A DNA stretch of 64,000 bases from Microbispora sp. NBC_01189. Its GTDB lineage: Bacteria; Actinomycetota; Actinomycetes; Streptosporangiales; Streptosporangiaceae. Under the pieces are notes generated by a model. It saw nothing but the letters and a program-made list of their open reading frames with translations, did not search any database and had not been told where the DNA came from. Of the stretch, positions 36,226 to 51,814 are shown piece after piece. The DNA is taken from positions 1,580,001 through 1,644,000 of the forward strand of contig NZ_CP108581.1 in assembly GCF_036010665.1 (NCBI RefSeq), read 5' to 3'. Within the stretch, counting starts at the first letter, position 1. Each line of letters starts with the position of its first letter. The position numbers were made by a program, and so were the translations under genes.

Positions 36226-36536
36226 GCCAGCACACTACCGCGCACTCCGGGTCTGTTGATAAACAGGGACATTACCGGGACCAGAGCGCCGGAAATCAAT
36301 CGAGACCCGTCAAGAATGGCGGTGAACCCCTCGTCCGGTAAGACGTCATACCCCACCACACCCCTGCTGAACTGGGCAGATACGAGCCATAACCAGCCGC
36401 TATCGATAACGGATAGGGCAATCTGCTGATTGTTCTGGTTATAAGCACCACAGCCGGTGAGATCCGGTCGTTAATCTTCGGAGCGTTTTCCTGCTGAATG
36501 GGACGCACCCTCATCCGTCCCAGGGAAAGGAGCTTC
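36226..36536 (+). promoter_or_regulatory. Promoter/leader of protease array member 1
   Basis: A 311-bp spacer. At 36393-36418 lies CTATCGATAACGGATAG, an imperfect palindrome. Near the gene the RNA hairpin TGGGACG (36499-36505) / CGTCCCA (36516-36522), a perfect 7-bp stem, precedes the AAAGGAG ribosome site. The same hairpin recurs before most of the later protease genes. No CRP-type site is seen here. Confidence 0.5.
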
Positions 36537-37697: not shown

Positions 37698-37755
37698 CGC
37701 GGGCGGCCTGACCGCACGGCCATTCGGTCAAGCGCGCACACGTCCAGGTGGACGA

Positions 37756-37781
37756 GGGCCCGGCGGGCGACCGCCGGGCCC
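37756..37781 (+). terminator. Terminator after array member 1
   Basis: An 11-bp perfect stem (GGGCCCGGCGG / CCGCCGGGCCC) with a GCGA loop, 58 bp after the stop. Confidence 0.8.
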
Positions 37782-37870
37782 TTCGCATGTCCCCGTGCCC
37801 GCGCCCGGGGCGGCTTACGTCCCGCCTACGCCGGATGCGATGAAATTCCGGAAGTGTGAGATGCCGAGAG

Positions 37871-38332
37871 TCAGAAGCCAAACAACGCGCCGGTGGCCGA
37901 CCGCATCTCGCATTCATTGCCGAAGGTGTGCCGGAGCTGGAAGTACTTCCCGTCCCAGATACCGCTGGCGGTGGCCGTCGCAGGTGCGTAGAGCATCGTG
38001 CAGGGCTCGGTGCCGGGCCGCTCCAGGTCCGCCGGATCAAGGACCGCTCTGCTCAGCCGGGCGCACGCCTCGGCCGGGCGGGGATGCGAACCCCCTACCG
38101 GGGAGCAGTTCAGGAAGGCCGAGCGCGCCGGCGGATCCGTCGGCGCGCCGTTCGCCACCGTCAGGATCGCCACGCGTACGCGGGCGGCCGGGGGCGGGGG
38201 AGCCGGAAGCGCGATCTCGGGCGACGGCGGCGCGGGCAGGACTCCCGCCCGCCCGTGGCCGGACGCCGACGCGTGGCCGGACGGGCCGGCGGCCAGGGCC
38301 GCACCGGCGAGCAGGACAAGCAGCGTTCTCAT
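37871..38332 (-). CDS. SSI-family (subtilisin inhibitor-like) secreted protease inhibitor
   Basis: A 153-residue secreted protein. A signal peptide (L-L-V-L-L-A-G-A-A-L-A-A) and a proline-rich linker lead into the SSI fold: C-S-P-V-G-G-S-H-P-R-P-A-E-A-C, then the reactive loop C111-T-M-L-Y, then G-I-W-D-G-K, F-G-N-E-C and a final G-A-L-F-G-F. By alignment with Streptomyces SSI, the P1 residue is Met113 and P1' is Leu114. All four cysteines of the fold are present. SSI proteins tightly inhibit extracellular subtilisin-type and some trypsin-type serine proteases. It is on the opposite strand between members 1 and 2 of the protease array. Confidence 0.88.
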   Translation of the reverse strand: MRTLLVLLAGAALAAGPSGHASASGHGRAGVLPAPPSPEIALPAPPPPAARVRVAILTVANGAPTDPPARSAFLNCSPVGGSHPRPAEACARLSRAVLDPADLERPGTEPCTMLYAPATATASGIWDGKYFQLRHTFGNECEMRSATGALFGF

Positions 38333-38541
38333 TCGATCCCCCCGTTTCCGCTGGTGTCAGCGTTCCGGTGGGGATGCCTCCGAGCAAGCGCACACTCCGC
38401 GCCACAAGGAAATCCGACGTACCACAGACCGCTTCGGTTCCGCTGGTTTCATAACGAGCTGGGCAAGAAGCTGTGCCTGAACCGTGTGGATCTGGAAAAA
38501 TCACCCCTTACTATCCATATCTCCCATCTGAGAGGCCCACG

Positions 38542-39729
38542 GTGACCAGGAAGCTCGCACTCGCCGGTGGCGCAGCCGCCGCCGCGGGCCTGGCCGCCGT
38601 GCTCTGGAGCCAGGGACCGGCCACACCCGCGACGGCCTCGCTCCACATCGCCGCGGCCCCGGTCTCCGTCGTGAGCGGCCTCGACAGGAGTGCGGCCGGC
38701 ACGGGTGTGGTCAGCAGAAGCGGAGTCAGCAGAGGCGGCGTCAGCAGAGACGAAGTCAGCAGCTTCGCCCTCGCGCCGACCCAGACGGACAAGGAGCGGG
38801 TGGCGGCGTACTGGAGCCCCGAGCGGCTCAAGCAGGCGAGCAGCTACGTGCCGAGCACGAAGCCGTCGCCGCCGGCGAAGAGCGCCCCCTCGGCGCAGGA
38901 GGTGGTCCCCGGCGAGGCGAGCCGGGGCGCGACTCCGCCCCGGCGGGCGTCCGCCTCCGTCCCCGGCGACGCCCCGCCGATGGTGGGCAAGGTCTTCTTC
39001 AAGGTGGGCGACAAGCAGTACTGGTGCTCCGCCTCGGCGGTCCACTCGGTCCACCGCAACCTCGTCGCCACCGCCGGGCACTGCGCGTACGCGCTGGCGC
39101 AGGACACGCCGGTGGAGAACTGGATCTTCATCCCGTCCTACCACGACGGCGTGGCCCCCAAGGGGATCTTCGTCGGCCACACGCTCTACATGCACGAGGA
39201 CTTCGCGGGCCAGGGCGACTTCGACCGCGACTACGCCTTCGTGACCGTGCACCGGGGCTTCACCTGGCAGGCGTACACGGAGCAGGGCAGGTTCAAGTAC
39301 CGGGCCGTGGACGTGGGGCGCCTGGAGGACAAGGCCGGCGCCTTCCTGTTCACCTCGGCCAAGCCGCTCGCCCGGCGCGTCAGCGCCTTCGGCTACCCCG
39401 CGGGGGCTCATCCCGACGGCACCCGCCCGTACGACGGCCAGACGGTGCGGACCTGCTCCGGCACGACGGAGAAGAAGACCGTCAGCGCGCCGACCTGGCA
39501 GCTGGAGCACGGGGTGCGCCTGCCCGGCTGCGCCTTCACCGCCGGCGCGAGCGGCGGCCCGTGGGTCGTCGGCTACGACGACGTCAAGCGGACCGGCTAC
39601 CTGACCGGGGTCACCAGCCTGACCTGGAACCTCAGTGGTGGCGGGCGTCTCGACGCCGTCTCCACGCCGTACTTCAACACGCTCACCCGGCGGGTGTACG
39701 CGCAGGCGGGCCGGCAGGGCACCGGCTGA
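38542..39729 (+). CDS. Secreted trypsin-like serine peptidase, array member 2
   Basis: A 395-residue preproprotein with GTG start at 38542 after GAGAGG. The signal peptide is Ala-rich. The propeptide is longer than in the other members and contains a V-S-R repeat (S-G-V-S-R-G-G-V-S-R). Catalytic residues are present: His in A-T-A-G-H-C, Asp in D-R-D-Y-A-F, Ser337 in A-G-A-S-G-G-P-W. Both active-site cysteines are kept (R-T-C-S-G and P-G-C-A-F). It lacks the K-N-V-N-L-P junction shared by most members, and its leader has no hairpin or CRP site. It is the most divergent of the likely active enzymes. Confidence 0.9.
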   Translation: MTRKLALAGGAAAAAGLAAVLWSQGPATPATASLHIAAAPVSVVSGLDRSAAGTGVVSRSGVSRGGVSRDEVSSFALAPTQTDKERVAAYWSPERLKQASSYVPSTKPSPPAKSAPSAQEVVPGEASRGATPPRRASASVPGDAPPMVGKVFFKVGDKQYWCSASAVHSVHRNLVATAGHCAYALAQDTPVENWIFIPSYHDGVAPKGIFVGHTLYMHEDFAGQGDFDRDYAFVTVHRGFTWQAYTEQGRFKYRAVDVGRLEDKAGAFLFTSAKPLARRVSAFGYPAGAHPDGTRPYDGQTVRTCSGTTEKKTVSAPTWQLEHGVRLPGCAFTAGASGGPWVVGYDDVKRTGYLTGVTSLTWNLSGGGRLDAVSTPYFNTLTRRVYAQAGRQGTG

Positions 39730-39748
39730 GCCCGCCTCATGTTTTAGC

Positions 39749-39764
39749 TGTGATTTAGCTCACA
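39749..39764. promoter_or_regulatory. CRP-type site upstream of array member 3
   Basis: TGTGATTTAGCTCACA is a full TGTGA-N6-TCACA palindrome, 248 bp before the start of member 3. It matches the cAMP-receptor-protein consensus of actinobacteria and E. coli. Confidence 0.75.
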
Positions 39765-39939
39765 CAACGACCGCCCTGGGCGTTGCGCTGCGTGCCGATC
39801 TTTACACGGACCGCTCTCGATCAGACCTGCGCCGATGCCGAGTCGTGATCCTCATCCTGACAAGACCTGTCGGAGACAACCGTCAAGTAACGGACGGAGT
39901 CACCTGGAAAGCACGCAAAACATGGGCGAAAAGCGCAGG

Positions 39940-39990
39940 TACTGTCTTTACTAGCCCTTTACACACGGGTGGGACGCATGAGGCGTACCA
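39940..39990 (+). promoter_or_regulatory. Promoter and hairpin leader of array member 3
   Basis: TACTGT (39940-39945) is the -10 candidate, 67 bp before the ATG. The leader hairpin TGGGACGC-ATGAG-GCGTACCA (39970-39990) has one mismatch. The spacer 39730-40011 otherwise shows no gene. Confidence 0.5.
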
Positions 39991-40011
39991 CACGACAGCA
40001 CCTGGAGATCC

Positions 40012-41196
40012 ATGAACACCCGAGTCAGGCGCCTGATCCTCCCCATCGGAGGCATCGCCGCCGCCGGCCTCGTCGGGGCCACCCTGGCAGTGCCGGCTCA
40101 GGCCGCCCGCGACACGGCCTCGGACACCCTGGCCGCGAGCGGAGTCGCCGCGAAGAACATCGTCGCCTTCTGGCTCAGCGAGAAGGCCGCCAACCTGGTC
40201 AACGCCACCCCGTACGACCACGAGACCCTGGTCTCCGCGAAGCACATCTCCAAGGGCGGGCCGTCCGCGGACAGCAAGCCGGGCACCGTCGCCCCCACCG
40301 GCGGCGGCACCAAGGCCAGCGGCGCGTCCAAGAACGTGAACCTGCCGCGTACGACCGGCAAGGTCTTCTTCGTCGGCGCCGACCACCGGCCGCACTGGTG
40401 CACCGCCACCTCGCTGCAGTCGAAGTACCACAACGTGGTCGCCACCGCCGGCCACTGCGTGTACGACACCGAGTCGAACAAGGCCACCATGAAGTACTGG
40501 GTCTTCGTGCCCGGTTACTACCAGGGCAAGGCTCCGTGGGGCATCTACGTCGGCAAGACGGCCTACACCCACTATGACTTCGACGTCTACGAGGACGGCG
40601 ACCGCGACTACGCGTTCGTGACCGTCTACAACGGCATCAAGGCCGGCCGCGGCGGCGACCTGCGCAACGTCGCCGAGTGGAACTGGAAGCAGGTCGACAA
40701 GAAGGAGTACGACAAGTACGACGGCTTCATCCGCAAGGCCAAGGGCGGCAAGTACTACGTGGTCAAGTTCACCGACGCCGGTCGCCTCGGCGACAACGTC
40801 GGCGGCCAGGGCTTCGCCTACAACCAGAAGGTCGGCAAGTACGTCTACGTGTTCGGCTACCCGAGCGGCTCGCACCCGGACGGCAACCACGCCTTCACCG
40901 GCAACACCCTCAAGTGGTCGTACGGCAAGACCTTCGCCGCCAAGGCCCCGGCCGTGAAGGCCGAGGAGCTGGTGGGCGTGAAGTCCTCCTTCACCGGTGA
41001 GGGCTCCTCGGGTTCGGCGTGGCTGCTCACCTACTCGAGCAGCCGCCGCCTGGGCTACCTGAACGGCGTCACCAGCGGTGTCTCCGACACCGACGGCAAC
41101 GACCGGATCGACACCAGCGTCTCCCCGTACTTCGACGGCGAGACCTACGGCGTCTACAAGGCCGCCGCCAACGTCTGGTCCGGCTCCATCGCCTGA
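40012..41196 (+). CDS. Secreted trypsin-fold peptidase, array member 3 (Ser kept, disulfide lost)
   Basis: A 394-residue preproprotein. The signal peptide ends near V-P-A-Q-A-A; the propeptide contains F-W-L-S-E-K-A-A-N-L. The mature domain begins around K-N-V-N-L-P. His is in A-T-A-G-H-C-V-Y-D and Asp in D-R-D-Y-A-F. The serine motif is E-G-S-S333-G-S-A-W: the nucleophile remains but the following G-G-P is G-S-A. Both active-site cysteines are replaced by Ser (K-W-S-Y-G and V-K-S-S-F). It is thus intermediate between the active members and the Leu-substituted ones. The variable loop is 48 codons (40636-40779). Whether it is active is uncertain. Confidence 0.88.
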   Translation: MNTRVRRLILPIGGIAAAGLVGATLAVPAQAARDTASDTLAASGVAAKNIVAFWLSEKAANLVNATPYDHETLVSAKHISKGGPSADSKPGTVAPTGGGTKASGASKNVNLPRTTGKVFFVGADHRPHWCTATSLQSKYHNVVATAGHCVYDTESNKATMKYWVFVPGYYQGKAPWGIYVGKTAYTHYDFDVYEDGDRDYAFVTVYNGIKAGRGGDLRNVAEWNWKQVDKKEYDKYDGFIRKAKGGKYYVVKFTDAGRLGDNVGGQGFAYNQKVGKYVYVFGYPSGSHPDGNHAFTGNTLKWSYGKTFAAKAPAVKAEELVGVKSSFTGEGSSGSAWLLTYSSSRRLGYLNGVTSGVSDTDGNDRIDTSVSPYFDGETYGVYKAAANVWSGSIA

Positions 41197-41234
41197 TCCG
41201 CCTGATCGCCGCCCGCGGCGACACCCCCCCCCAC

Positions 41235-41266
41235 GGAAGGCCCGGCTGTCCTCAGCCGGGCCTTCC
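41235..41266 (+). terminator. Terminator after array member 3
   Basis: A perfect 14-bp stem (GGAAGGCCCGGCTG / CAGCCGGGCCTTCC) with a TCCT loop. Confidence 0.9.
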
Positions 41267-41384
41267 GGCGTACCGACGGAAATTCTGTGCGGAAGGTGTA
41301 AACCCACCGATGGGGAAAGGCGACGCCGCCCGATGCGAAGAACCAGGTCAAACCGCGCGGGTGCGATCCGTTCCATGAATCGGG

Positions 41385-41400
41385 TGTGATTCGCGTCACA
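41385..41400. promoter_or_regulatory. CRP-type site upstream of array member 4
   Basis: TGTGATTCGCGTCACA, with the palindrome extended by one base each side (G...C), 274 bp before the start of member 4. The identical 16-mer occurs before member 5. Confidence 0.8.
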
Positions 41401-41602
41401 CCAGAATGCGGCCGCCGTCGTCACCTCCTTCCACAGGATTCGGTCAGAGAACTCCCAGGAAACTCCCAGACTGCGGAAACGATCGAGGGGGGCGGGTTGA
41501 CAGAAGGGTTTGCGAGCAGTCGGTCAGGTCACGCGAAGATCTCGGCGCCCGGCGGGGTCCGCACCCCCGCTTGTTCGCCTGTTTCGGTCCAAATCGGGGC
41601 TG

Positions 41603-41652
41603 TATGGTCTGGCCATCCCTCTTCTGACGGATGGGACGCAAGAGGCGTCTCA
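41603..41652 (+). promoter_or_regulatory. Promoter and hairpin leader of array member 4
   Basis: TATGGT (41603-41608) lies 66 bp before the ATG. The hairpin TGGGACGC-AAGAG-GCGTCTCA (41632-41652) pairs throughout with one G-U. AAGGAG follows at 41662. The rest of the spacer 41197-41673 holds the terminator and CRP site and no gene. Confidence 0.55.
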
Positions 41653-41673
41653 CGACAGACCAAGGAGTTCCCC

Positions 41674-42924
41674 ATGAAGCGCACTCTGGCTTTCGGTGGC
41701 CTTGTCGCCACCGCCGGCCTCCTGGCCGCGGGCCTCGCCGCCCCGGCTCAGGCCGCCCCGAAGGACGTCGCCAGCGACGCACTCGCCACCAACGGCATCG
41801 CGGCCTACGCCACGGTCGCCTACTGGTACAACAACGAGTACGCGAACCTGGTCAACGCGACGCCCTACACCGTCGAGACCAAGGTCGTCGCCAAGCACAT
41901 CAGCAAGGGCGGTCCCACTCCGGACAGCAAGCCCGGTGTGGTTCCGGCGATCGGCGACGAGAAGAAGACCGTCGCCAAGTCGAAGAACGTCAACCTGCCC
42001 AAGACCACGGGCAAGGTGTTCTTCGACGGCGCCGACGGCAGGCCGCACTGGTGCACCGCCACCTCCGTGCAGGCGGCCTACCGCAACCTGGTCGCGACCG
42101 CCGGACACTGTGTCTACGACACCGAGTCCAACGCGGCCACCCTGCAGAACTGGGTGTTCGTGCCCGGTTACTACCAGGGCAAGACCCCGTGGGGCATCTA
42201 CGTCGGTAAGACGGCGTACACGCACTACGACTACGACGTGTACGAGGACGGCGACCGCGACTACGCGTTCGTCACCGTGTACAACGGTCTGAAGATCGGT
42301 CACGACGGTCTGTCCGAGCCGGAAGCGGCCCCTGGCGAGTGGTACGAGGTCACCAAGGAGACCTACGAGAAGTTCCCCGCGGAGTACCGCGCCAAGGACC
42401 GGGAGGGCCGCTGCTACTTCAAGCGGCGCCAGGACGGCCAGGGCAAGTGGCACTACTACGTGTGGAAGTTCGTCGACGCGGGTCGCCTGGGTGACAACGT
42501 GGGCGGTCAGGGTCTGGCCTACAACCAGAAGATCGGCCAGCCGGTCTTCGTGTTCGGCTACCCGAGCGGGTCGCACCCGGACGGCAACTACGCCTTCACC
42601 GGCAAGACCCTCAAGTGGAGCTACGGCAAGACCTTCGCCGCGCAGGCCCCGGCCATCAAGGCCGAGGAGCTGCAGGCCGTCAAGTCCTCCTTCACCGGAG
42701 AGGGCGCGCTCGGCTCGGCGTGGCTGCTCAAGTACAACAACGGCCGCCGTCTCGGCTACCTGAACGGCGTGACCATCGGCGTCTCCGACACCGACGGCAA
42801 CGACCGCTACGACACCTCCGTCTCCCCGTACTTCGACGGCGAGACCTACGGCGTCTACAGCGCGGCCAAGAACAACTGGTCCGGCTCGATCGCGATTCCT
42901 TTCGAGAACCCGCTGAACCACTGA
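41674..42924 (+). CDS. Secreted trypsin-fold pseudopeptidase, array member 4 (Ser to Leu346)
   Basis: A 416-residue preproprotein with signal peptide (L-V-A-T-A-G-L-L-A-A-G-L-A-A-P-A-Q-A), propeptide and S1-like domain. His145 (A-T-A-G-H-C) and Asp (D-R-D-Y-A-F) are kept. The nucleophile position is Leu346 in G-E-G-A-L-G-S-A-W, and both neighbouring cysteines are Ser. It should not have classical serine protease activity. The variable loop is 64 codons (42289-42480) and includes an unusual C-Y-F-K-R-R segment. From A-G-R-L-G-D-N to S-G-S-I-A it is identical in protein sequence to member 5. It alone has a nine-residue C-terminal extension ending P-L-N-H. Confidence 0.9.
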   Translation: MKRTLAFGGLVATAGLLAAGLAAPAQAAPKDVASDALATNGIAAYATVAYWYNNEYANLVNATPYTVETKVVAKHISKGGPTPDSKPGVVPAIGDEKKTVAKSKNVNLPKTTGKVFFDGADGRPHWCTATSVQAAYRNLVATAGHCVYDTESNAATLQNWVFVPGYYQGKTPWGIYVGKTAYTHYDYDVYEDGDRDYAFVTVYNGLKIGHDGLSEPEAAPGEWYEVTKETYEKFPAEYRAKDREGRCYFKRRQDGQGKWHYYVWKFVDAGRLGDNVGGQGLAYNQKIGQPVFVFGYPSGSHPDGNYAFTGKTLKWSYGKTFAAQAPAIKAEELQAVKSSFTGEGALGSAWLLKYNNGRRLGYLNGVTIGVSDTDGNDRYDTSVSPYFDGETYGVYSAAKNNWSGSIAIPFENPLNH

Positions 42925-42946
42925 TCCCAGCGGATCAGGCTTGACG

Positions 42947-42973
42947 AAGAGCCCGGCCTCCGGCCGGGCTCTT
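42947..42973 (+). terminator. Terminator after array member 4
   Basis: AAGAGCCCGGCC / GGCCGGGCTCTT, a 12-bp stem with TCC loop, followed by TTCGTTTT. Confidence 0.92.
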
Positions 42974-43162
42974 TCGTTTTCTCCCAAGGCGCGACGCCGG
43001 CCTTATTCGCTCGCGGTGGAAGTAAACCGAGGAAGGGTCTCGCGCGACGTGGCCGGAAACACGGCTTTCGCCGTTCGCGGCATCGCGCCACCATTCGGCC
43101 ACCGTACGTGAGGAACGGGCCCCTTAGACGGATCAGCCGCCCGACCAGTGCCATCGCAGTGG

Positions 43163-43178
43163 TGTGATTCGCGTCACA
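43163..43178. promoter_or_regulatory. CRP-type site upstream of array member 5
   Basis: TGTGATTCGCGTCACA, 267 bp before the start of member 5. TTAGACG lies about 40 bp further upstream, as also before members 6 and 7. Confidence 0.8.
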
Positions 43179-43372
43179 GCGATTCCTGACGCCGCCACAC
43201 AGGGATTTCCACAGTCGATGGTGAGAATCCGGAAAGGGAGATTCTCTAGCTGCGGCAACGGCCTACCCGGGACGGCCGGCCCCTCACTGTCGGTTATGTA
43301 ACGAAAAGGCCACACGAGGGCGGCGCCGGGTTTGGCGCCAAACGCCGACATACCGGCGAAAGTCCTGCGCTG

Positions 43373-43423
43373 TATGGTTCTGGCTATCCCTTTACTGACG
43401 CATGGGACGCATGAGGCGTTCCA
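43373..43423 (+). promoter_or_regulatory. Promoter and hairpin leader of array member 5
   Basis: TATGGT (43373-43378), 67 bp before the ATG. The hairpin TGGGACGC-ATGAG-GCGTTCCA (43403-43423) pairs fully with one G-U; AAGGAG follows. The spacer 42925-43444 shows no gene besides these elements. Confidence 0.55.
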
Positions 43424-43444
43424 CGACAGACCAAGGAGTTCCAA

Positions 43445-44674
43445 ATGAAGCGCACCCTCGCCTTCGGTGGCCTCGTCGCCACCGCCGGCCTCCTGGCCGC
43501 GGGCCTTTCCGTCCCCGCTCAGGCGGCCAGTGACGTCGCCAGCGCCCCGCTGGCCGCCACCGGCATCCAGGCCAAGAACATCGCCGCCTTCTGGTTCAGC
43601 GAGCGCATGGCCAACCTGATCAACGCCACGCCGTACACCGTCGAGACCAAGGTCGCCGCCAAGCACCTCTCCAAGGGCGGGCCGTCGGCGGACAGCAAGC
43701 CGGGTGTCGTGCCGGCGATCGGCGACGAGAAGAAGTCGGCCGCCAAGTCGAAGAACGTGAACCTGCCCAAGACCACGGGCAAGGTGTTCTTCATCGGCGC
43801 CGACCACAAGCCGCACTGGTGCTCGGCCACCTCGGTGCAGTCGTCGTACCACAACATGGTGGCCACGGCCGGGCACTGTGTCTACGACACCGTGTCCAAC
43901 GCCTCCACCATGAACAACTGGGTCTTCATCCCGGGTTACTACCAGGGCAAGACCCCGTGGGGCATCTACGTCGGCAAGACCGCCTACACGCACTACGACT
44001 ACGACGTGTACGAGGACGGCGACCGCGACTACGCGTTCGTCACCGTGTACAACGGCATCAAGCTCCCGCCGAACGGGCTCGACGAGGCCTGGGCCATCAT
44101 CAGGAAGGCCCTGCGCACCGGCGACTGGAGCGAGGTCGAGAAGTACGTCGGCTTCAAGGAGGTCGACAAGGCCACCTTCGAGGCCTACGACAAGGCGAAG
44201 CAGCTTCCCGCCTACGCGCGTGACGGCAAGTACTACGCGCTGAAGTTCACCGACGCGGGTCGTCTCGGCGACAACGTCGGTGGTCAGGGTCTGGCCTACA
44301 ACCAGAAGATCGGCCAGCCGGTCTTCGTGTTCGGCTACCCGAGCGGGTCGCACCCGGACGGCAACTACGCCTTCACCGGCAAGACCCTCAAGTGGAGCTA
44401 CGGCAAGACCTTCGCCGCGCAGGCCCCGGCCATCAAGGCCGAGGAGCTGCAGGCCGTCAAGTCCTCCTTCACCGGTGAGGGCGCGCTCGGCTCGGCGTGG
44501 CTGCTCAAGTACAACAACGGCCGTCGTCTCGGCTACCTGAACGGCGTGACCATCGGCGTCTCCGACACCGACGGCAACGACCGCTACGACACCTCCGTCT
44601 CCCCGTACTTCGACGGCGAGACCTACGGCGTCTACAGCGCGGCCAAGAACAACTGGTCCGGCTCGATCGCCTAA
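43445..44674 (+). CDS. Secreted trypsin-fold pseudopeptidase, array member 5 (Ser to Leu348)
   Basis: A 409-residue preproprotein. The propeptide contains G-I-Q-A-K-N-I-A-A-F-W-F-S-E and K-H-L-S-K-G-G-P-S-A-D-S. His and Asp are in place (A-T-A-G-H-C-V-Y-D, D-R-D-Y-A-F). Leu348 occupies the nucleophile position in G-E-G-A-L-G-S-A-W and both active-site cysteines are Ser. The loop after T-V-Y-N-G is the longest of the array, 67 codons (44057-44257), with an amphipathic charged helix. The remainder to the stop is identical in protein to member 4, which points to recent gene conversion. Confidence 0.9.
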   Translation: MKRTLAFGGLVATAGLLAAGLSVPAQAASDVASAPLAATGIQAKNIAAFWFSERMANLINATPYTVETKVAAKHLSKGGPSADSKPGVVPAIGDEKKSAAKSKNVNLPKTTGKVFFIGADHKPHWCSATSVQSSYHNMVATAGHCVYDTVSNASTMNNWVFIPGYYQGKTPWGIYVGKTAYTHYDYDVYEDGDRDYAFVTVYNGIKLPPNGLDEAWAIIRKALRTGDWSEVEKYVGFKEVDKATFEAYDKAKQLPAYARDGKYYALKFTDAGRLGDNVGGQGLAYNQKIGQPVFVFGYPSGSHPDGNYAFTGKTLKWSYGKTFAAQAPAIKAEELQAVKSSFTGEGALGSAWLLKYNNGRRLGYLNGVTIGVSDTDGNDRYDTSVSPYFDGETYGVYSAAKNNWSGSIA

Positions 44675-44734
44675 CTCTCTCCGAGAGCACAAGCGGTCAC
44701 CCGTCAGGGGTCCACACCCTGACACGGTCCACCC

Positions 44735-44766
44735 GAAGGGCCCGGCTTCCGAGCCGGGCCCTTTCG
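44735..44766 (+). terminator. Terminator after array member 5
   Basis: AAGGGCCCGGCT / AGCCGGGCCCTT stem with a short loop, 60 bp after the stop, ending in TTTCG. Confidence 0.85.
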
Positions 44767-44843
44767 GCGTCTCCGAGGGCCGGAGACGGGGATTGCGGGC
44801 ACGATTAGACGGTTCGGCCGCCGATTCCGCTCCCTTCCATGCG

Positions 44844-44859
44844 TGTGATTTAGGTCACA
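44844..44859. promoter_or_regulatory. CRP-type site upstream of array member 6
   Basis: TGTGATTTAGGTCACA, 263 bp before the start of member 6; TTAGACG lies about 36 bp upstream. Confidence 0.78.
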
Positions 44860-45044
44860 CCTATGAGACCCACCGCCGGCCCGCACTCCCTCACAGCGAG
44901 GATTCAGGCTTCCGCCCCACCTGCGCACTCGGCTCCGTTTCGGCCACCCCAAACCGAAACATGGCTCGATCACGGAATGGTAACGCGCCGGAGGGTTCCC
45001 CTCCGCGGTGCCGCGAACGCTTTCTGTCATGAAGATCTGCCCGG

Positions 45045-45096
45045 TATGTTCCTTGGCGATCCCTTTACTGACGCATGGGACGCATGAGGCGCCCCA
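45045..45096 (+). promoter_or_regulatory. Promoter and hairpin leader of array member 6
   Basis: TATGTT (45045-45050), 72 bp before the ATG. Hairpin TGGGACGC-ATGAG-GCGCCCCA (45076-45096) with one A-C mismatch; AAGGAG follows. No gene is seen in 44675-45121. Confidence 0.5.
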
Positions 45097-45121
45097 CGAC
45101 AGAGCAAGGAGCACACCCTCA

Positions 45122-46204
45122 ATGAAGCGCACTCTGGCTCTCGGTGGCCTCGTCGCCACCGCCGGCCTCCTCGCCGCCGGTCTCGCCGCCCCTGCCCAGG
45201 CGGCCGGCAAGGGCTGGGCCAAGGACAACATGGCCCCCACGAACCCTGCGGCCCTCCAGGTCATCAAGTACTGGCGGGGTGAGCGGGCGTCGAACTTCGA
45301 GAACGCCACGCCGTACGCCGTCGAGACCAAGGTCGCCGCCAAGCACATCTCCAAGGGCGGGCCGTCGGCGGACAGCAAGCCCGGCGTCGTCGCGGCCATC
45401 GGCGACGAGAAGAAGTCGAGCAGCACCTCGAAGAACGTGAACCTGCCCAAGACCACGGGCAAGGTGTTCTTCCGCGGCGCCGACGGCAAGCCGCACTGGT
45501 GCTCGGCCACCTCCGTGCAGTCGACCTACCACAACCTGGTCGCGACCGCGGGGCACTGTGTGTACGACACGCAGTCGAACAAGGCCACGATGGACTACTG
45601 GGTGTTCGTCCCGGGTTACTACCAGGGCAAGACCCCGTGGGGCATCTACGTCGGCAAGACCGCCTACACCCACTACGACTACGACGTGTACGAGGACGGC
45701 GACCGCGACTACGCGTTCGTCACCGTGTACAACGGCGTGCTCCCGTCGTGGGAGAAGCGCAAGCTGGTCGTCAAGGACGTCGGCCGCCTCGGCGACAACG
45801 TCGGCGGTCAGGGCCTGGCCTACAACCAGAAGATCGGCAGCGCGGTCTACGTCTTCGGTTACCCGAGCGGGTCGCACCCGGACGGCAACCACGCCTTCTC
45901 CGGCAAGACGCTCAAGTGGAGCTACGGCAAGACCTTCGCCGCGACCGCTCCGGCCATCAAGGGCGAGGAGCTGCAGGGCGTCAAGTCCTCCTTCACCGGT
46001 GAGGGCTCGCTCGGCTCGGCGTGGCTGCTGCAGTACAAGAGCGCCCGTCGTCTCGGCTACCTGAACGGCGTGACCATCGGCGTCTCCGACACCGACGGCA
46101 ACGACCGCTACGACACCAGCGTCTCCCCGTACTTCGACGGCGAGACCTACGGCGTCTACAACGCGGCCAAGAGCAACTGGACTGGCAAGATCACCGCGCA
46201 GTAG
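45122..46204 (+). CDS. Secreted trypsin-fold pseudopeptidase, array member 6 (Ser to Leu297)
   Basis: A 360-residue preproprotein, the shortest of the Leu-substituted group because its variable loop is only 15 codons (45737-45781). Signal peptide as in members 4 and 5. The propeptide differs (K-G-W-A-K-D-N-M-A-P-T-N). His and Asp are kept; Leu297 replaces the nucleophile in G-E-G-S-L-G-S-A-W; the cysteine pair is replaced by Ser. ATG 45122; an in-frame ATG at 45008 would begin upstream of the promoter and is unlikely. It represents a near-minimal form of the scaffold. Confidence 0.9.
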   Translation: MKRTLALGGLVATAGLLAAGLAAPAQAAGKGWAKDNMAPTNPAALQVIKYWRGERASNFENATPYAVETKVAAKHISKGGPSADSKPGVVAAIGDEKKSSSTSKNVNLPKTTGKVFFRGADGKPHWCSATSVQSTYHNLVATAGHCVYDTQSNKATMDYWVFVPGYYQGKTPWGIYVGKTAYTHYDYDVYEDGDRDYAFVTVYNGVLPSWEKRKLVVKDVGRLGDNVGGQGLAYNQKIGSAVYVFGYPSGSHPDGNHAFSGKTLKWSYGKTFAATAPAIKGEELQGVKSSFTGEGSLGSAWLLQYKSARRLGYLNGVTIGVSDTDGNDRYDTSVSPYFDGETYGVYNAAKSNWTGKITAQ

Positions 46205-46367
46205 TCCGCGCAGTAGTCCGTACGCGAGTCCCACTCGTGTGGACGACCGTACGACCGCGGGCCGGTGGCGAACCCACTGGCCCGCGCCCGCGACACCCCC
46301 GTTCGACCCCCCTCCGGCCGGCGGAGAACCCTTCGGCAGCGAGCGAACGGTGCCATCCCCCACCCGA

Positions 46368-46391
46368 AGCCCCGGCGCAGGCGCCGGGGCT
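46368..46391 (+). terminator. Terminator after array member 6
   Basis: Perfect 11-bp stem AGCCCCGGCGC / GCGCCGGGGCT with a two-base AG spacer; some inner pairs would open to form the loop. It lies 163 bp after the stop. Confidence 0.75.
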
Positions 46392-46449
46392 CGGCGCGTT
46401 CCGGGGCCCTTTAGACGCGTCACGGGCCGATCCGGTGTCATTCGTTTCA

Positions 46450-46465
46450 TGTGATTTACATCACA
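46450..46465. promoter_or_regulatory. CRP-type site upstream of array member 7
   Basis: TGTGATTTACATCACA, 268 bp before the start of member 7; TTAGACG lies about 40 bp upstream. Confidence 0.78.
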
Positions 46466-46660
46466 CTGTCGTTTTTGTGGACCGAAACAAAAGCCACCGG
46501 CACCCCTCACTCCCCACCCTCGCACCTGACCGACTATCTGCGTGAATGTCGGTCTAGGTCGTAAAAAATGCTCCTTGGCGCGAATATCACGGATTGATCT
46601 CGACGTTCCGGCGGCCCGAGACGGCGCGGGAACCGCTACCGCATCTCAAGATCATCCATG

Positions 46661-46710
46661 TATGGTCCAGCCATCCCTTCACTGACGGATGGGGCGCATG
46701 AGGCGTCTCA
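46661..46710 (+). promoter_or_regulatory. Promoter and hairpin leader of array member 7
   Basis: TATGGT (46661-46666), 67 bp before the ATG. Hairpin TGGGGCGC-ATGAG-GCGTCTCA (46690-46710) pairs throughout with two G-U; AAGGAG follows. The A-to-G change in the left arm is tolerated as G-U, as expected for a selected stem. The rest of 46205-46732 shows no gene. Confidence 0.55.
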
Positions 46711-46732
46711 CGCCAGACCAAGGAGTTCCCCC

Positions 46733-47953
46733 ATGAAGCGCACTGTTGCCTTTGGTGGCCTCGTGGCCACCGCCGGCCTCCTCGCCGCCGGTCTCGTCAC
46801 CCCCGCCCAGGCGGCCGGTGACGTGGCCAACGCCCCGCTGGCGTCGACCGGCATCCAGGCCAAGAACATCGCCGCCTTCTGGCTGGCGGAGAACGCGGCC
46901 AACCTGATCGCCGCCACGCCGTACAACGTCGAGACCAAGGTCGCCGCCAAGCACCTCTCCAAGGGTGGCCCGTCGGCCGACAGCAAGCCCGGCGTCGTCC
47001 CGGCGATCGGCGACGAGAAGAAGACCGCCGCCAAGTCGAAGAACGTGAACCTCCCCAAGACCACCGGCAAGGTGTTCTTCGCGGACGGGTTCAAGAACAT
47101 CGGCACCAAGGAGAAGCCGCAGTATGTCGCGGTCAACCCCCACTGGTGCTCGGCCACCTCCGTGCAGTCGTCGTACCACAACATGGTCGCCACGGCCGGT
47201 CACTGCGTCTACGACACCGTGTCCAACAAGGCGACGCTGAACTACTGGGTCTTCATCCCGGGTTACTACCAGGGCAAGACCCCGTGGGGCGTGTACGTCG
47301 GCAAGACGGCCTACACCCACTACGACTACGACGTCTACGAGGACGGCGACCGCGACTACGCGTTCGTCACCGTCTACAACGGCCTCAAGGTCAACGGTGG
47401 CACGGCCGACCGCACGGCCCCGGTGAACCGCACCGAGGTGTCGAAGGCCGACTGGGACGCCTACGCCAAGAACGCTCCGTTCCTGGTCGCGGGGTCCGAT
47501 GGCGGCAAGTACTACGTCTGGAAGTTCGTCGACGCGGGTCGCCTCGGTGACAACGTGGGCGGTCAGGGTCTGGCCTACAACCAGAAGATCGGCCAGCCGG
47601 TCTTCGTGTTCGGCTACCCGAGCGGGTCGCACCCGGACGGCAACCACGCCTTCTCCGGCAACACCCTCAAGTGGAGCTACGGCAAGACGTTCCCCGCGCA
47701 GGCCCCGGCCATCAAGGCCGAGGAGCTGCAGGGCGTCAAGTCGTCCTTCACCGGTGAGGGCTCGCTCGGCTCGGCGTGGCTGCTCAAGTACAACAACGGC
47801 CGCCGTCTCGGCTACCTGAACGGCGTGACCATCGGCGTCTCCGACACCGACGGCAACGACCGCTACGACACCTCCGTCTCCCCGTACTTCGACGGCGAGA
47901 CCTACGGCGTCTACAGCGCGGCCAAGAACAACTGGTCCGGCTCGATCGCCTGA
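46733..47953 (+). CDS. Secreted trypsin-fold pseudopeptidase, array member 7 (Ser to Leu345)
   Basis: A 406-residue preproprotein close to member 5 in signal and propeptide. It has a second insertion not seen in the others, about 15 residues between K-V-F-F and the first conserved H-W-C (F-K-N-I-G-T-K-E-K-P-Q-Y). His and Asp are kept; Leu345 is at the nucleophile position in G-E-G-S-L-G-S-A-W; both active-site cysteines are Ser. The main variable loop is 51 codons (47384-47536). The C-terminal part is nearly that of members 4 and 5. Confidence 0.9.
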   Translation: MKRTVAFGGLVATAGLLAAGLVTPAQAAGDVANAPLASTGIQAKNIAAFWLAENAANLIAATPYNVETKVAAKHLSKGGPSADSKPGVVPAIGDEKKTAAKSKNVNLPKTTGKVFFADGFKNIGTKEKPQYVAVNPHWCSATSVQSSYHNMVATAGHCVYDTVSNKATLNYWVFIPGYYQGKTPWGVYVGKTAYTHYDYDVYEDGDRDYAFVTVYNGLKVNGGTADRTAPVNRTEVSKADWDAYAKNAPFLVAGSDGGKYYVWKFVDAGRLGDNVGGQGLAYNQKIGQPVFVFGYPSGSHPDGNHAFSGNTLKWSYGKTFPAQAPAIKAEELQGVKSSFTGEGSLGSAWLLKYNNGRRLGYLNGVTIGVSDTDGNDRYDTSVSPYFDGETYGVYSAAKNNWSGSIA

Positions 47954-47999
47954 GTGCTCACGCGCTCTGACCGATCCGCTTGACACACAGGTTGAAAAA

Positions 48000-48025
48000 C
48001 AGGGTCCGGCTTCGGCCGGGCCCTG
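48000..48025 (+). terminator. Terminator after array member 7
   Basis: CAGGGTCCGGC / GCCGGGCCCTG stem with a G-T pair, followed by TTCCTTTTTT, a real U-tract. Confidence 0.93.
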
Positions 48026-48069
48026 TTCCTTTTTTGCGCAGTTGTTTCCGACGTGAGGCCTGTGCGCTG

Positions 48070-48075
48070 TATGTT
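48070..48075 (+). promoter_or_regulatory. -10 element of array member 8
   Basis: TATGTT followed by CCTT, as before members 6 and 9, 58 bp before the GTG. The leader hairpin is not conserved here and no CRP-type site is present in the 179-bp spacer. Confidence 0.5.
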
Positions 48076-48132
48076 CCTTCGCATCGCGTCGACGAGTGCC
48101 GCGCGGGAGACGTTCCACGGCAAGGAGATCGG

Positions 48133-49260
48133 GTGAAGCGCATCCTCGCCCCGCTGGCAGGGGCGGTGGCGACGTCCGCGTTGCTCGGCATGGTCGTTCC
48201 CGCGCCCGCGCGGGCCTACGACATCACGGTGACGAGCCCGCTGGTCCCCCAGGCGGAGGTCTCCTCCGCGCTCGCCTACTGGCTCGGGAACGGCGCGCGT
48301 GCGTTCGCCGCCGCGACGCCCTATCTCCTGCCGGTGACGATCACCGCCACCCCCGTCCCGCGCGGCGACGCGGAGCCCGATGGCGACCGGGGCGTGGTGC
48401 CCGCCGTCGCGGGGGCCAGGCGGGTGCCCGGCGTCTCACGGAACGTCAACCTGCCGCGAACCGCGGGCAGAGTGTTCTTCGTCGGCGCCGACCACCGCCC
48501 GCACTGGTGCGCGGGCACCTCGGTCCAGGCCGATCACCGCAACCTCGTCGCGACCGCCGGCCACTGTGTGTACGAGCCTGGGCGGCGGCCCTCCGTGGCG
48601 GCGGCCCGGACCTACCGCCACTGGGTCTTCGTGCCCGGGTTCTCCAGGGCCGCCTCCGGGGCCACGGCGCCTCTCGGCGTCTATCCCGGCAAACAGGCCT
48701 TCGCCCACCAGGACTTCACCCGCTACGGCGACCTCGACCGCGACTACGCCTTCGTCAGCGTCCACGACGGCGTGCTGCCCCGGCGGGTCGTGCTTTCCGG
48801 CGCCGCGCGGTACGCCGCTTTCACCGGTCCGAAGTACCGCACCCGGACGGGCTACACCGGCGTGCTGCTGACCCGCGCGGGCCGCCTCGGCGACAAGGTG
48901 GGAGAGCAGGGCCTGGCCTACAACCTCCCGGTCCGCGGACCTCTCGCCGTCTTCGGTTATCCCGTCGGTCCCGCCTCCGGCGCGGCGCCCACCGGTTTGC
49001 GCCGGTCGTACGGAAGACCGTTTCGCGTCTGGGATCTGACCCAAAAGGCGGACGAACTGGTGGCCGTACGCGCGCCCTTCGTGTCCGCGGGGGGATCGCC
49101 GTGGCTGGCCGCGTATCGGGGCGGGCGCGGGCTCGGCTACCTCAACGGCCTGACGATCGGCATGTCCGGCCAGTCCATCGCCCTCTCGCCCTACTTTGAC
49201 GGCGAGTTGTTCCATGTATACGACGCCGCCCGGCACGAGCGCGTCCCTTCTCCCGCCTGA
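48133..49260 (+). CDS. Secreted trypsin-fold peptidase homologue, array member 8 (degenerate Ser motif)
   Basis: A 375-residue preproprotein, GTG start after AAGGAG. Signal peptide ends near A-R-A. His (A-T-A-G-H-C-V-Y) and Asp (D-R-D-Y-A-F-V) are kept. The nucleophile region reads V-S-A-G-G-S-P-W, so the residue four before Trp is Gly; a serine lies two before Trp instead. Both active-site cysteines are gone (R-R-S-Y-G, V-R-A-P-F). It is more diverged than members 3-7 and lacks T-D-G-N-D-R near its end. Probably inactive, although a shifted nucleophile cannot be excluded. Confidence 0.85.
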   Translation: MKRILAPLAGAVATSALLGMVVPAPARAYDITVTSPLVPQAEVSSALAYWLGNGARAFAAATPYLLPVTITATPVPRGDAEPDGDRGVVPAVAGARRVPGVSRNVNLPRTAGRVFFVGADHRPHWCAGTSVQADHRNLVATAGHCVYEPGRRPSVAAARTYRHWVFVPGFSRAASGATAPLGVYPGKQAFAHQDFTRYGDLDRDYAFVSVHDGVLPRRVVLSGAARYAAFTGPKYRTRTGYTGVLLTRAGRLGDKVGEQGLAYNLPVRGPLAVFGYPVGPASGAAPTGLRRSYGRPFRVWDLTQKADELVAVRAPFVSAGGSPWLAAYRGGRGLGYLNGLTIGMSGQSIALSPYFDGELFHVYDAARHERVPSPA

Positions 49261-49367
49261 GAGCGTTTCGACCGGCGACCCGCCGCGAAACATACCGGAC
49301 ACAAAAAGGCCCTTAATTCCGGACACGTCTTCTTATCTACGACTTATGGCAACAAGCTCCTGTGCGG

Positions 49368-49418
49368 TAAGTTCCTTGACATCCCTTTACTGACGCATGG
49401 GGCGTAAGTGACGTCCCA
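49368..49418 (+). promoter_or_regulatory. Promoter and hairpin leader of array member 9
   Basis: TAAGTT (49368-49373), 72 bp before the ATG. The hairpin TGGGGCG-TAAGTGA-CGTCCCA (49398-49418) uses a different loop yet keeps pairing (one G-U). No CRP-type site in 49261-49444 and no terminator seen after member 8. Confidence 0.55.
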
Positions 49419-49444
49419 CGTACAGCGCGAGGAGCGACCCCCCT

Positions 49445-50548
49445 ATGAAGAAGCACGTGCTTCTCCCGATCGGCGCGATCGTCGCCGCGGGACTTGCGGC
49501 GACAGCCCTGACCGCTCCGGCCCAGGCCGGAAAGGTCATCAGCACCGACAAGCTCGCCAGCGCGGCCGGCGTCGGCGACGTCGTGAAGTTCTGGCTCGAC
49601 GGCAACGGCTACAAGCTCAAGTCGGCCGACCCGTACGGTCTGGAGCACAAGCAGGTTCCCAAGCACGTTTCCAAGGGAGCCCCCGCCGCCGACGGCAAGC
49701 CGGGCATCGTGCCGGCGATCGGCGACGAGAAGAAGACCGCCGCGAAGTCCAAGAACGTCAACCTGCCGAAGACCGTCGGCCGGGTCTTCTTCAGCCTCGG
49801 CAGCGGCCTCTACTCCTGCTCCGCCTCCTCGGTGCAGTCCGCGTACCACAACCTCGTCGCCACGGCGGGCCACTGCGTCTACAACATCGAGACCAACCAC
49901 GATGTCGTGGACAACTGGATCTTCATCCCGGGCTACTACGACGGCAAGGCCCCCTGGGGCGTGTACGTCGGCAAGCAGGCGTTCACGCACTACGACTTCG
50001 ACGTGTACGAGGACGCCGACCGCGACTACTCGTTCGTCACCGTCTACAACGGCATCGGGTACGACCTCGAGAAGAAGTTCGTCGACCTCGGCCCGCTGGG
50101 CAACAACGTCGGCGGCCAGGGCCTGGCCTACAATCAGAAGGTCGGCGCGCCGGTCTTCGTGTTCGGCTACCCCTCGGCGCCGCACGGCGACGGCGACTAC
50201 GTGTGGACCGGCCAGACGGTCAAGTGGTGCTACGGCAAGCCGTACTTCCCGGTCAAGGAGCCCTCGGTCAAGGTCGAGGAGCAGGTGGGCCTCAAGTGCT
50301 CGATGACCGGCGGCTCGTCCGGCGGCCCCTGGATCCTCAAGTACAGCAGCGCCCGCCGTCTCGGCTACATCAACGGTGTGACCAGCCTCGGCGGGGACAC
50401 CGACGGCAACGACCGTAGCGACATGATCAGCTCCCCGTACTTCGACGGCGAGACCTACGGCGTCTACAAGGCGGCCTACTCGCTGTGGTCCGGCTCGCTG
50501 GTCCGCAAGGACGGCACGATCGGCATCACCGAGGCCAAGTCCGAGTGA
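49445..50548 (+). CDS. Secreted trypsin-like serine peptidase, array member 9
   Basis: A 367-residue preproprotein with the complete triad: His in A-T-A-G-H-C-V-Y-N, Asp in D-R-D-Y-S-F, Ser292 in T-G-G-S-S-G-G-P-W. Both active-site cysteines are present (K-W-C-Y-G and L-K-C-S-M). The propeptide and K-N-V-N-L-P junction match members 4-7, so it joins the active type and the Leu-substituted type in one family. The variable loop is short (about 13 codons). It is the last gene of the array. Confidence 0.92.
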   Translation: MKKHVLLPIGAIVAAGLAATALTAPAQAGKVISTDKLASAAGVGDVVKFWLDGNGYKLKSADPYGLEHKQVPKHVSKGAPAADGKPGIVPAIGDEKKTAAKSKNVNLPKTVGRVFFSLGSGLYSCSASSVQSAYHNLVATAGHCVYNIETNHDVVDNWIFIPGYYDGKAPWGVYVGKQAFTHYDFDVYEDADRDYSFVTVYNGIGYDLEKKFVDLGPLGNNVGGQGLAYNQKVGAPVFVFGYPSAPHGDGDYVWTGQTVKWCYGKPYFPVKEPSVKVEEQVGLKCSMTGGSSGGPWILKYSSARRLGYINGVTSLGGDTDGNDRSDMISSPYFDGETYGVYKAAYSLWSGSLVRKDGTIGITEAKSE

Positions 50549-50559
50549 CGCCCGCCTCC

Positions 50560-50592
50560 GGTGGGGTCCGGTCCCTCGTGGCCGGCCCCACC
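50560..50592 (+). terminator. Terminator after array member 9
   Basis: GGTGGGGTCCGG / CCGGCCCCACC stem with a bulged base, 12 bp after the stop. Confidence 0.7.
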
Positions 50593-50656
50593 GTGGGCAC
50601 CCGTTCGCCCAGGTTGTGGCGGCAGGTGCGGCGGCGGGCACGGCGAGCGCGCCCTG

Positions 50657-51814
50657 TCACACGCCGACCGCCGCCCTGCCGGTGCGCCGGCCACGCTCCA
50701 GCAGCGCCGCCACCCGGGGATCCGCGGCGTACGGCGCCAGTCGCCGGCGCAGGTCCGCGACGTAGGTCCGGGTGCGCGCCGACTGGATGCCCTCGGCCGC
50801 GTCGAGCGCCGAGGACGCGACCTGGCACGCCTCCTCCAGCTCGCCCTCCTGGATCAGGGCCGAGGCGAGCAGCGCGAGGTTGAACATCCTCCCCCGCACG
50901 TATCGCCCGTCCATCACCAGCGACCGCCTGGCCTGCCGTACGGCTTCTCCGCCGTCGCCGAGGTCGCGCAGGCAGTGGGCCGACTTCGCGGCCAGGTAGG
51001 CCTCGTCGAAGTAGCCGATCCAGCGGGGCTCGTTCTGCGGAGAGCGCCGGTCGAAGGCGATCTCGGCCTCGTGCAGCGCGTTCCCGCACCCCGCCCGGTC
51101 CCCCAGCAGCGCGAGGGCGTGCGCCTCCAGCACGCGGGTCTCGGCGAGCAGGGTGCGGACCCCCGAGCGCCGGGCCGCCTCGACCCCCGCCCTGGCCAGC
51201 TCCAGCCCGTGCCGGGCGTGCCCGATGTAGACGGCCTGGTGGCTCATCCCGGCCAGGATCTCGCCGCTCAGCGCGTGGTCGCCCGCGCCCCGCGCCAGGC
51301 CGAGCGCCTGGATGAGGTAGCGCTGCGCGAGCCCGTGCCGCTCCAGGTCGTAGGCCATCCATCCGGCGAGCCGGGTCAGCTCGGCCGCCGCGGTCGCGAG
51401 CGACCGCCCGGTGGCCTCGCCGTACGCGCCCTCGCGCAGCAGCGGCGTCACGGCGGTGTGCAGGTAGCGCACGACCGGCCCGCGCACGCTGCCACCGCCG
51501 AACCGGTTGTCGAGCTCCCCGAACGACCGGGTGACCTCCCGGATGGCGGCGACGTCCGAGGCCCCGACCCGGCGTGGCCCGGCCGCGGAGAGCCGCTCCG
51601 CGGGCGGCGCCGCCAGCCAGTGAGCGAGTCCCGCCGAGCCCGCTCCCAGGGCGAAGGTGGAGTCGAGCAGGAACCTGCGCCGCTCGACGTCGGCTCTCCA
51701 CAGTGCTGTCACGCTTGCCACACCCTCCTGCCACGAATGGGGAAACCGCTCTCCCACGCCGAGGCCGCCGAGCCGTCGGGCCAGGCACCTGATGCGGTCG
51801 AGGTCACGTCGCAT
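50657..51814 (-). CDS. TPR-type regulator-like protein without visible HTH
   Basis: A 385-residue protein of helical repeats (residues about 95-375) matching the C-terminal sensor half of actinomycete regulators that usually start with an XRE or AfsR-type helix-turn-helix. Here the first 45 residues contain no such domain; the conserved A-D-V-E-R-R-R-F-L-L linker follows almost directly. A stretch at 53-70 (G-A-G-S-A-G-L-A-H-W-L-A) is hydrophobic. It may sense a peptide or act by protein contact. It is convergent with protease member 9. ATG at 51814; I see no upstream frame that would restore the HTH. Confidence 0.7.
   Translation of the reverse strand: MRRDLDRIRCLARRLGGLGVGERFPHSWQEGVASVTALWRADVERRRFLLDSTFALGAGSAGLAHWLAAPPAERLSAAGPRRVGASDVAAIREVTRSFGELDNRFGGGSVRGPVVRYLHTAVTPLLREGAYGEATGRSLATAAAELTRLAGWMAYDLERHGLAQRYLIQALGLARGAGDHALSGEILAGMSHQAVYIGHARHGLELARAGVEAARRSGVRTLLAETRVLEAHALALLGDRAGCGNALHEAEIAFDRRSPQNEPRWIGYFDEAYLAAKSAHCLRDLGDGGEAVRQARRSLVMDGRYVRGRMFNLALLASALIQEGELEEACQVASSALDAAEGIQSARTRTYVADLRRRLAPYAADPRVAALLERGRRTGRAAVGV

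Follow-up and report, generated by a model that had tools for sequence, protein, structure and literature searches.

Members 4 to 7 of a tandem array of nine related genes in Microbispora sp. NBC_01189 are very probably non-proteolytic relatives of serine proteases that selection has kept. The window analysed here, 64,000 nucleotides in length, covers positions 1580001-1644000 of a single-contig, 7.37 Mb genome. The array lies on the + strand at window positions 36498-50548, all nine reading frames are uninterrupted, and an SSI (subtilisin-inhibitor-like) gene sits on the − strand between the first two members. Members 4 to 7 have Leu where the catalytic serine should be, belong to a constrained clade found in several genera, and share an upstream leader with an active-type sister gene. 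The best overall explanation, which we hold with middling confidence, is that these proteins are sealed scaffolds that bind through an inserted subdomain and serve as cofactors or adaptors under the same leader as member 9.

Active-site residues in the array and its relatives

The four altered genes are member 4 (41674-42924), member 5 (43445-44674), member 6 (45122-46204) and member 7 (46733-47953). A first-pass annotation of this DNA had read Leu in place of the catalytic serine in each, and the translations place it as claimed: members 4 and 5 have GALGSAW (Leu346 and Leu348) and members 6 and 7 have GSLGSAW (Leu297 and Leu345). Its other residue readings also stand. By translation and alignment, the active-type motif is GASGGPW in members 1 and 2 and GSSGGPW in member 9; a second pair of cysteines is replaced by Ser/Ser in members 3 to 7, all of which read KWSYG and V-K-S-S; and His (AGHC) and Asp (DRDYAF) are still present in members 4 to 7. 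Members 1, 2 and 9 have Cys at both second-pair sites (within R-T-C-S-G in member 2), and the first pair (C42-C58 by analogy) is retained in all nine members. Two features had been missed. Position 214 is Ile in members 4 to 8 (LNGVTI or LNGLTI) and Ser in members 1, 2, 3 and 9, and the nucleophile is missing from member 8 as well, making five of nine members. The S1-type His57-Asp102-Ser195 triad is incomplete in members 4 to 8, with residue 195 being Leu in members 4 to 7 and, by alignment, Gly in member 8.

Members 4 to 7 have the double beta-barrel of the chymotrypsin fold (PA clan, S1-like). Their similarity to the Anisep/AL20 group extends across both barrels (profile matches with E 1.4e-30 and 3.8e-29, two stretches each). 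The bacterial serine proteases Anisep (PDB 3wy8) and AL20 (PDB 3cp7) are the nearest solved folds by sequence and structure, and they resemble members 1, 2 and 9 in having the same Cys pair and Ser motif. These hallmarks are missing in the middle of the array, the second Cys pair from members 3 to 7 and the serine from members 4 to 7. Anisep and AL20 also have no long inter-barrel insertion, whereas members 4, 5 and 7 have one of 49-65 amino acids. Against a cut-off of 27.6 bits for Trypsin_2 (PF13365), members 4 to 7 score 18.8-20.8, member 1 25.7, member 2 19.1 and member 9 26.7. Pfam gave no further domain in members 3 to 7, and NCBIfam gave nothing above cut-off. Members 4 to 7 would derive from Anisep/AL20-type proteases like members 1, 2 and 9.

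The remaining members frame this middle group. Member 1 (36498-37697, with a similar order in relatives), member 2 (38473-39729, start codon uncertain) and member 9 (49445-50548, AlphaFold2 predicted local distance difference test score (pLDDT) 85.3) keep the S-H-D triad and the Cys pair and are presumed to be active proteases. Member 3 (40012-41196) is of intermediate type: Ser333 is kept within GSSGSAW, the second Cys pair is lost, and there is a 46-amino-acid insertion. Member 8 (about 48133-49260, start codon inferred) reads SAGGSPW, has lost the Cys pair, and is a second, predicted type of pseudoprotease.

The family was sampled from the best 80 of 453 relatives listed, which gave 64 loci in addition to the window genome, and the counts describe close relatives. 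Partial open reading frames at locus ends were excluded before counting. The 313 distinct full-length frames included shortened repeats, and removal of 12 left 301 de-duplicated rows. At the nucleophile site these have Ser in 125, Leu or Ile in 108 (98 Leu, 10 Ile), Asp in 62, Gly in three and Ala in three. The Leu/Ile rows come from Herbidospora, Microtetraspora, Microbispora, Acrocarpospora, Planotetraspora and Sphaerimonospora as well as the window genome. All 108 lack both second-pair cysteines and carry Ser197 and Ala/Ser198. Position 214 is Ile in 95 of them, Ser in 11 and Ala in two, and no other active-site positions are coupled as tightly as Leu/Ile195 and Ile214 (95/108). His57 and Asp102 are both kept in 47 of the 108 Leu/Ile rows, 121 of the 125 Ser rows and all 62 Asp rows; one or both are lost in 61 Leu/Ile rows versus four Ser rows.

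The first-pass annotation had also described the serine and cysteine changes as coordinated, which the wider sample does not bear out. The second Cys pair is present in 95 Ser rows and absent from 30, member 3 included, and it is kept in 55 of the 62 Asp rows. Cys loss is therefore neither required nor enough for loss of the serine. The losses are nested, not simultaneous, because member 3 keeps Ser with both cysteines already gone. Together, the changes Ser195 to Leu/Ile, Ser214 to Ile, Gly197 to Ser and Pro198 to Ala/Ser would seal the catalytic centre with side chains. With the additional loss of His57 and/or Asp102 in many relatives, the fold would be retained as a scaffold. A relocated nucleophile, such as Ser197 of GxLGSAW, would instead leave these proteins as enzymes, and both the invariance of Ser197 in the Leu/Ile rows and the His57 and Asp102 of members 4 to 7 speak for it. 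We regard it as very unlikely, since 61 of those rows lack His57 and/or Asp102; moreover, 97% of the Ser rows that have lost the Cys pair carry Ser197, so it did not arise as a replacement.

Other residues occupy the nucleophile site elsewhere. The 62 Asp members belong to Nonomuraea (L056-L070, L072) and Herbidospora (L025-L035), and their intact His57 and Asp102, with the Cys pair in 55, give a D-H-D arrangement. Such members fill the middle of the array in Nonomuraea loci, where Microtetraspora or Herbidospora loci have Leu. The slot of the member 8 type is Gly in the window but varies among Asp, Ala, Gly and Ser in relatives (17 rows in all, one repeating member 8), as if under weaker constraint, and these genes may be decaying.

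A degenerate DNA pattern for GEG[AS]-[L/I/M/F]-GS[AS]W, in which the GS position allows some other residues too, was present in 55 of 250 Streptosporangiaceae genomes, in 13 of 68 genera and in 14 of 15 own-genus genomes (the window genome counted). The reversed pattern, used as a control, gave five matches in the same 250 genomes, so some single matches may be chance. Across the class, 394 genomes were sampled, 41 from Streptosporangiaceae; two of the 353 others matched, about the same rate as the control (two in 394). One of these, GAFGWAW in G290, is plainly chance; the other is GSLGSSW in G559. One set of ten genomes used in the analysis was selected for having several motif matches, not at random.

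Further family genes lie outside the array. A second cluster in the same genome (L092:9270-14957, genome C1:2013272-2018956) contains three putative Leu/Ile pseudoproteases, one on the opposite strand. Their insertions exceed 160 amino acids, one being rich in His/Asp and Pro/Thr, and the flanking genes look unrelated by eye. Another locus from a same-genus genome (L094, G155:C1:1210000-1229900) has seven family genes; the nucleophile site is Leu or Ile in six of them and Ser in the seventh. An off-array Herbidospora gene (L093:1903-3531) has substitutions at all three triad positions (Gln57, Asn102, Ile195) and a very long insertion, and it is preceded by the same leader. Lastly, a distant Ser-type pair with intact Ser motifs is found on the − strand of the window genome at C1:5037929-5039884 (L088-L091).

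Phylogeny and constraint

The Leu/Ile proteins form essentially one group. In a tree of 313 rows, with eight trait columns removed and position 214 kept, 113 of 114 Leu/Ile rows (before de-duplication) fell in one clade of 118 rows with a branch support of 67, and one additional Ser-to-Leu change falls in the member-3 group. In a 69-row tree built with a richer model, with position 214 removed and four long-branch rows excluded, 25 Leu/Ile rows stood apart from the Ser/Cys-pair and Asp rows with a support of 94.7. Leu and Asp rows lie separately in the 313-row tree. An approximately unbiased test of Leu/Ile plus Asp as one clade versus all other rows gave p 0.0085, although the Ser rows that nest within the Leu clade confound this value; a single Leu/Ile plus Asp clade set against the Ser/Cys-pair rows alone was not rejected (p 0.597). 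Independent origins of Leu and Asp are thus no more than a candidate reading.

Constraint was measured as omega, the dN/dS ratio, using the GY94 codon model with F3x4 on core columns. Pairs were drawn from different loci, some maybe of the same genome, with each sequence used at most twice and a median dS of 1.5-2.0. Median omega was 0.058 for Leu/Ile rows (40 pairs), 0.028 for Ser rows with the Cys pair (40), 0.045 for Ser rows without it (23) and 0.037 for Asp rows (40). Every pair in all four groups rejected omega = 1, including 40/40 Leu/Ile pairs. The GY94 model was preferred because NG86 ignores extreme third-position G+C and understates dS; the NG86 ratios (0.357 for Leu/Ile and 0.85 for Ser/Cys-pair rows, with loop values of 1.1-1.6 from an unreliable alignment) were not relied on. 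The Leu/Ile clade is constrained, somewhat less than the presumed active enzymes.

These results bear on the central proposal of the first-pass annotation, that the Leu genes are selected pseudoproteases and not products of decay. It had pointed to a conserved clade with dN/dS below 1 as the sign of selection and to random inactivating changes and frameshifts as the sign of the contrary. What emerged is essentially one Leu/Ile clade with omega about 0.06 and, instead of random damage, open frames with one replacement type in 108 rows. The clade spans six named genera plus the window genome, and members 4 to 7 retain a signal peptide (judged by eye), a pro-region and the leader; the proposal is well supported. 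From their signal peptides, members 4 to 7 are predicted to be secreted. Decay of redundant copies would suit a duplicated array, an omega somewhat above that of Ser/Cys-pair rows, and a member-8 slot that varies between Gly, Ala, Asp and Ser by species, as relaxed constraint might give. As an account of the Leu/Ile clade it is hardly credible, because purifying selection of this strength contradicts it, as do the single replacement type, the open frames and the retained leader and signal peptide.

Inserted subdomains and similar cores

The insertion lies between the two barrels, after the strand DRDYAFVTVYNG and before the strand beginning DAGRLGDN. Its median length is 55 amino acids for Leu/Ile rows (range 13-216) and 95 for Asp rows (9-187); among Ser rows it is 46 where the Cys pair is missing and 13 where it is present. 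In the window, counted by hand from the sequences, it measures 62 amino acids in member 4 (42289-42474) and 49 in member 7 (47384-47530), with boundaries from alignment, and 65 in member 5 (44057-44251). The AlphaFold2 model of member 5 (pLDDT 90.7) predicts an ordered subdomain of helices (184-198, 202-207 and 215-224) and short strands, with a pLDDT of 82-96 over the block. Pfam searches of the member 5 insertion and of two insertions from the second cluster gave no match above cut-off.

Insertions and cores have different histories. The comparison took in 132 rows whose insertions have at least 25 amino acids, drawn from the Leu/Ile and Ala rows and from the Ser rows that lack the Cys pair, and it treated the window genome as its own group. 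The insertion was nearer to another genus than to any same-genome paralogue in 109/132 rows, and the core was so in 56/132. In 60 rows the insertion pointed to another genus while the core pointed home, and the reverse held in seven. For example, members 4 and 5 are 98-99% identical in base sequence in the C-barrel and 45% in the insertion. The insertions thus appear old and distinct, and the cores are kept alike within arrays, probably by gene conversion.

Gene conversion might even account for the four Leu copies. If a single fixation of the motif was followed by its spread within arrays, the copies would reflect homogenisation and not selection on each. The base identity of 95-99% among the C-barrels of members 4, 5 and 7 favours this, as does a closest core from the same genome in 76/132 rows, ties included. 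It is nonetheless improbable as a full explanation, since it leaves unexplained both retention in six named genera at omega about 0.06 and the progressive loss of His57/Asp102 with open frames. Spread by gene conversion is compatible, as a mechanism, with the scaffold-and-cofactor explanation.

We give about even chances to the insertion being a binding module. It would then be the working part of each protein, specific to each paralogue and with a different partner for each; candidates are a sister protease or its zymogen, a substrate, and components of the envelope or matrix. Alternatively, the proteins could help to build the surface of hyphae or spores, as a scaffold secreted in large amounts in which the insertion adjusts packing and no particular partner is bound. 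This would suit actinomycetes that grow as filaments and sporulate, as the hosts do, and it would fit both the alike cores of the tandem copies and the large low-complexity insertions in some copies of the second-cluster type. This alternative is unlikely, as the likeness of insertions across genera fits specific roles better than generic packing, and the Pfam matches of members 1 to 9 include no surface-anchor domain.

Shared leader, neighbouring inhibitor gene and proposed role

A leader with a covarying 8-bp hairpin is common to members 3 to 7, the active-type member 9 and the second cluster. The hairpin has a −10-like hexamer on one side and the ribosome binding site on the other. In the window, leaders precede member 3 (39956-40011, the most divergent copy, with three mismatches to the 22-base core), member 4 (41618-41673), member 5 (43389-43444, predicted hairpin at about 43403-43423), member 6 (45062-45121), member 7 (46676-46732) and member 9 (49384-49444), where the same element stands before an active-type gene. 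Those of the second cluster are at C1:2013213, 2015374 and 2018991. The leader core has nine matches in the 7.37 Mb genome, each upstream of a family gene. Among relatives, 121 of 151 candidate stretches were kept for their GACAG- and GGAG-like ends, giving 101 distinct leaders, and pairs were recounted in all of these plus seven from the own genome. Pairing reached 95.5% in 56 leaders chosen by eye (51 of the 101 distinct and five from the own genome), a subset that leaned to regular copies. A looser 18-base pattern lay upstream of 82/96 Leu/Ile genes, 19/29 Ser genes without the Cys pair, 23/83 with it and 28/62 Asp genes; it is not specific, because it has 283 matches in the 740,699 bases of the loci. 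Rfam did not match the leader and gave two sub-threshold matches elsewhere in 36000-51000. An upstream open reading frame within the leader was not proposed, the frame being broken in some copies by eye. The leader suggests that members 3 to 7 are co-expressed with member 9.

The SSI gene (37871-38332, PF00720 E 2.2e-18) is the only PF00720 match in the genome. Relatives show parts of the same gene order (active, SSI, active, altered middle, active). An SSI gene is present in 25 of the 64 loci, including Nonomuraea loci with Asp arrays, and many loci end before that place. SSI was found in 11/11 genomes searched. This association would suit one form of the decoy role raised in the first-pass annotation, in which the Leu proteins act as sinks for the inhibitor beside member 1 and so free the active proteases. 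The role is not supported and looks distinctly improbable, because Leu195 and Ile214 should block the old cleft to a canonical inhibitor, and because SSI is on a different contig from the main array in the five g34 genomes searched and in G178. In addition, the type-1 and type-2 members of Herbidospora loci L036 and L054 are about 155 bases apart with no SSI between them, and none lies beside the second cluster.

Inactive serine protease homologues are a kind already known. A prokaryote survey reported 42 putative inactive homologues among 966 serine proteases, from five families and 91 genomes (PMC2605481), and the accessible part of its account mentions neither a conserved tandem array nor diversified insertions nor a shared leader. 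MamO of magnetotactic bacteria is a trypsin-like pseudoprotease that has lost catalysis, serves as a scaffold and promotes MamE-dependent proteolysis (PMC4794232). Like members 4 to 7, it is a bacterial chymotrypsin-fold protein without the nucleophile. However, it is HtrA-related and magnetosome-linked, with Thr for Ser and a C-terminal transporter domain, whereas the window proteins are Anisep/AL20-like, carry signal peptides and stand in tandem with insertions that vary from copy to copy. Insect clip-domain serine protease homologues are likewise described as non-catalytic and networked with active proteases and a protease inhibitor (PMC6901238). These are eukaryotic, act in melanisation and have a clip domain, which is absent from the Pfam matches of members 1 to 9 (E up to 0.1), and the likeness concerns a possible way of working, not descent.

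Members 4 to 7 may act without catalysis, as cofactors or adaptors, in an extracellular program that is turned on with member 9 via the shared hairpin leader. That they serve active sister proteases, as against another ligand, is a tentative choice. Several observations weigh against the scaffold-and-cofactor explanation. The Leu/Ile clade also contains four Ser rows and one Ala row, so either Leu is not strictly irreversible or gene conversion moved the motif. Omega is 0.058 in Leu/Ile rows, roughly double the 0.028 of Ser/Cys-pair rows. The second cluster has no other family or Trypsin_2 match alongside, which disfavours obligate partnership with a linked protease. The insertion of member 6 is only 13 amino acids, the shortest among members 4 to 7, and thus the insertion is not the sole working part in all members. 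Finally, a codon-model selection test on the insertions failed: single linkage merged 97 of 142, and omega values of 0.000-0.012 in three of four groups are an artefact of saturated dS. More speculative, and rather doubtful, is the broader idea of an extracellular recognition kit, in which sealed scaffolds would present varied insertions to different ligands. Their cores would be homogenised by gene conversion while the insertions keep their identity across genera, and a single structured leader would drive their production along with that of an active sister protease; the Nonomuraea version, with Asp and an intact His57 and Asp102, would possibly have a new ligand or metal site.

An expression lead may exist in Microbispora ATCC-PTA-5024, where one report lists the consecutive accessions ETK32012.1 and ETK32013.1, assigned by Phyre2 as possible alkaline serine proteases, as over-represented at 90 h (PMC4709908); that they belong to the window family is a guess. 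The main text of two Planobispora rosea papers (PMC4514598, PMC8269224) has nothing on this family. Within listings of open-licence PMC papers, nothing was found on Anisep, nor any description of an arrayed, insertion-diversified and co-led pseudoprotease clade.

The array offers a whole tandem clade of predicted pseudoproteases in cultured actinomycetes, and the active-type sisters and inhibitor gene of the same locus provide internal controls. Few bacterial pseudoproteases have, to our knowledge, a worked-out role, MamO being one example. Near-identical cores with paralogue-specific insertions amount to a natural domain-swap experiment, and the shared leader is a handle on when the set is used. 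As a caution, genes of the window type should not be annotated as trypsin-like peptidases. Ultimately, this family would show how a protease scaffold turns into a family of binders.

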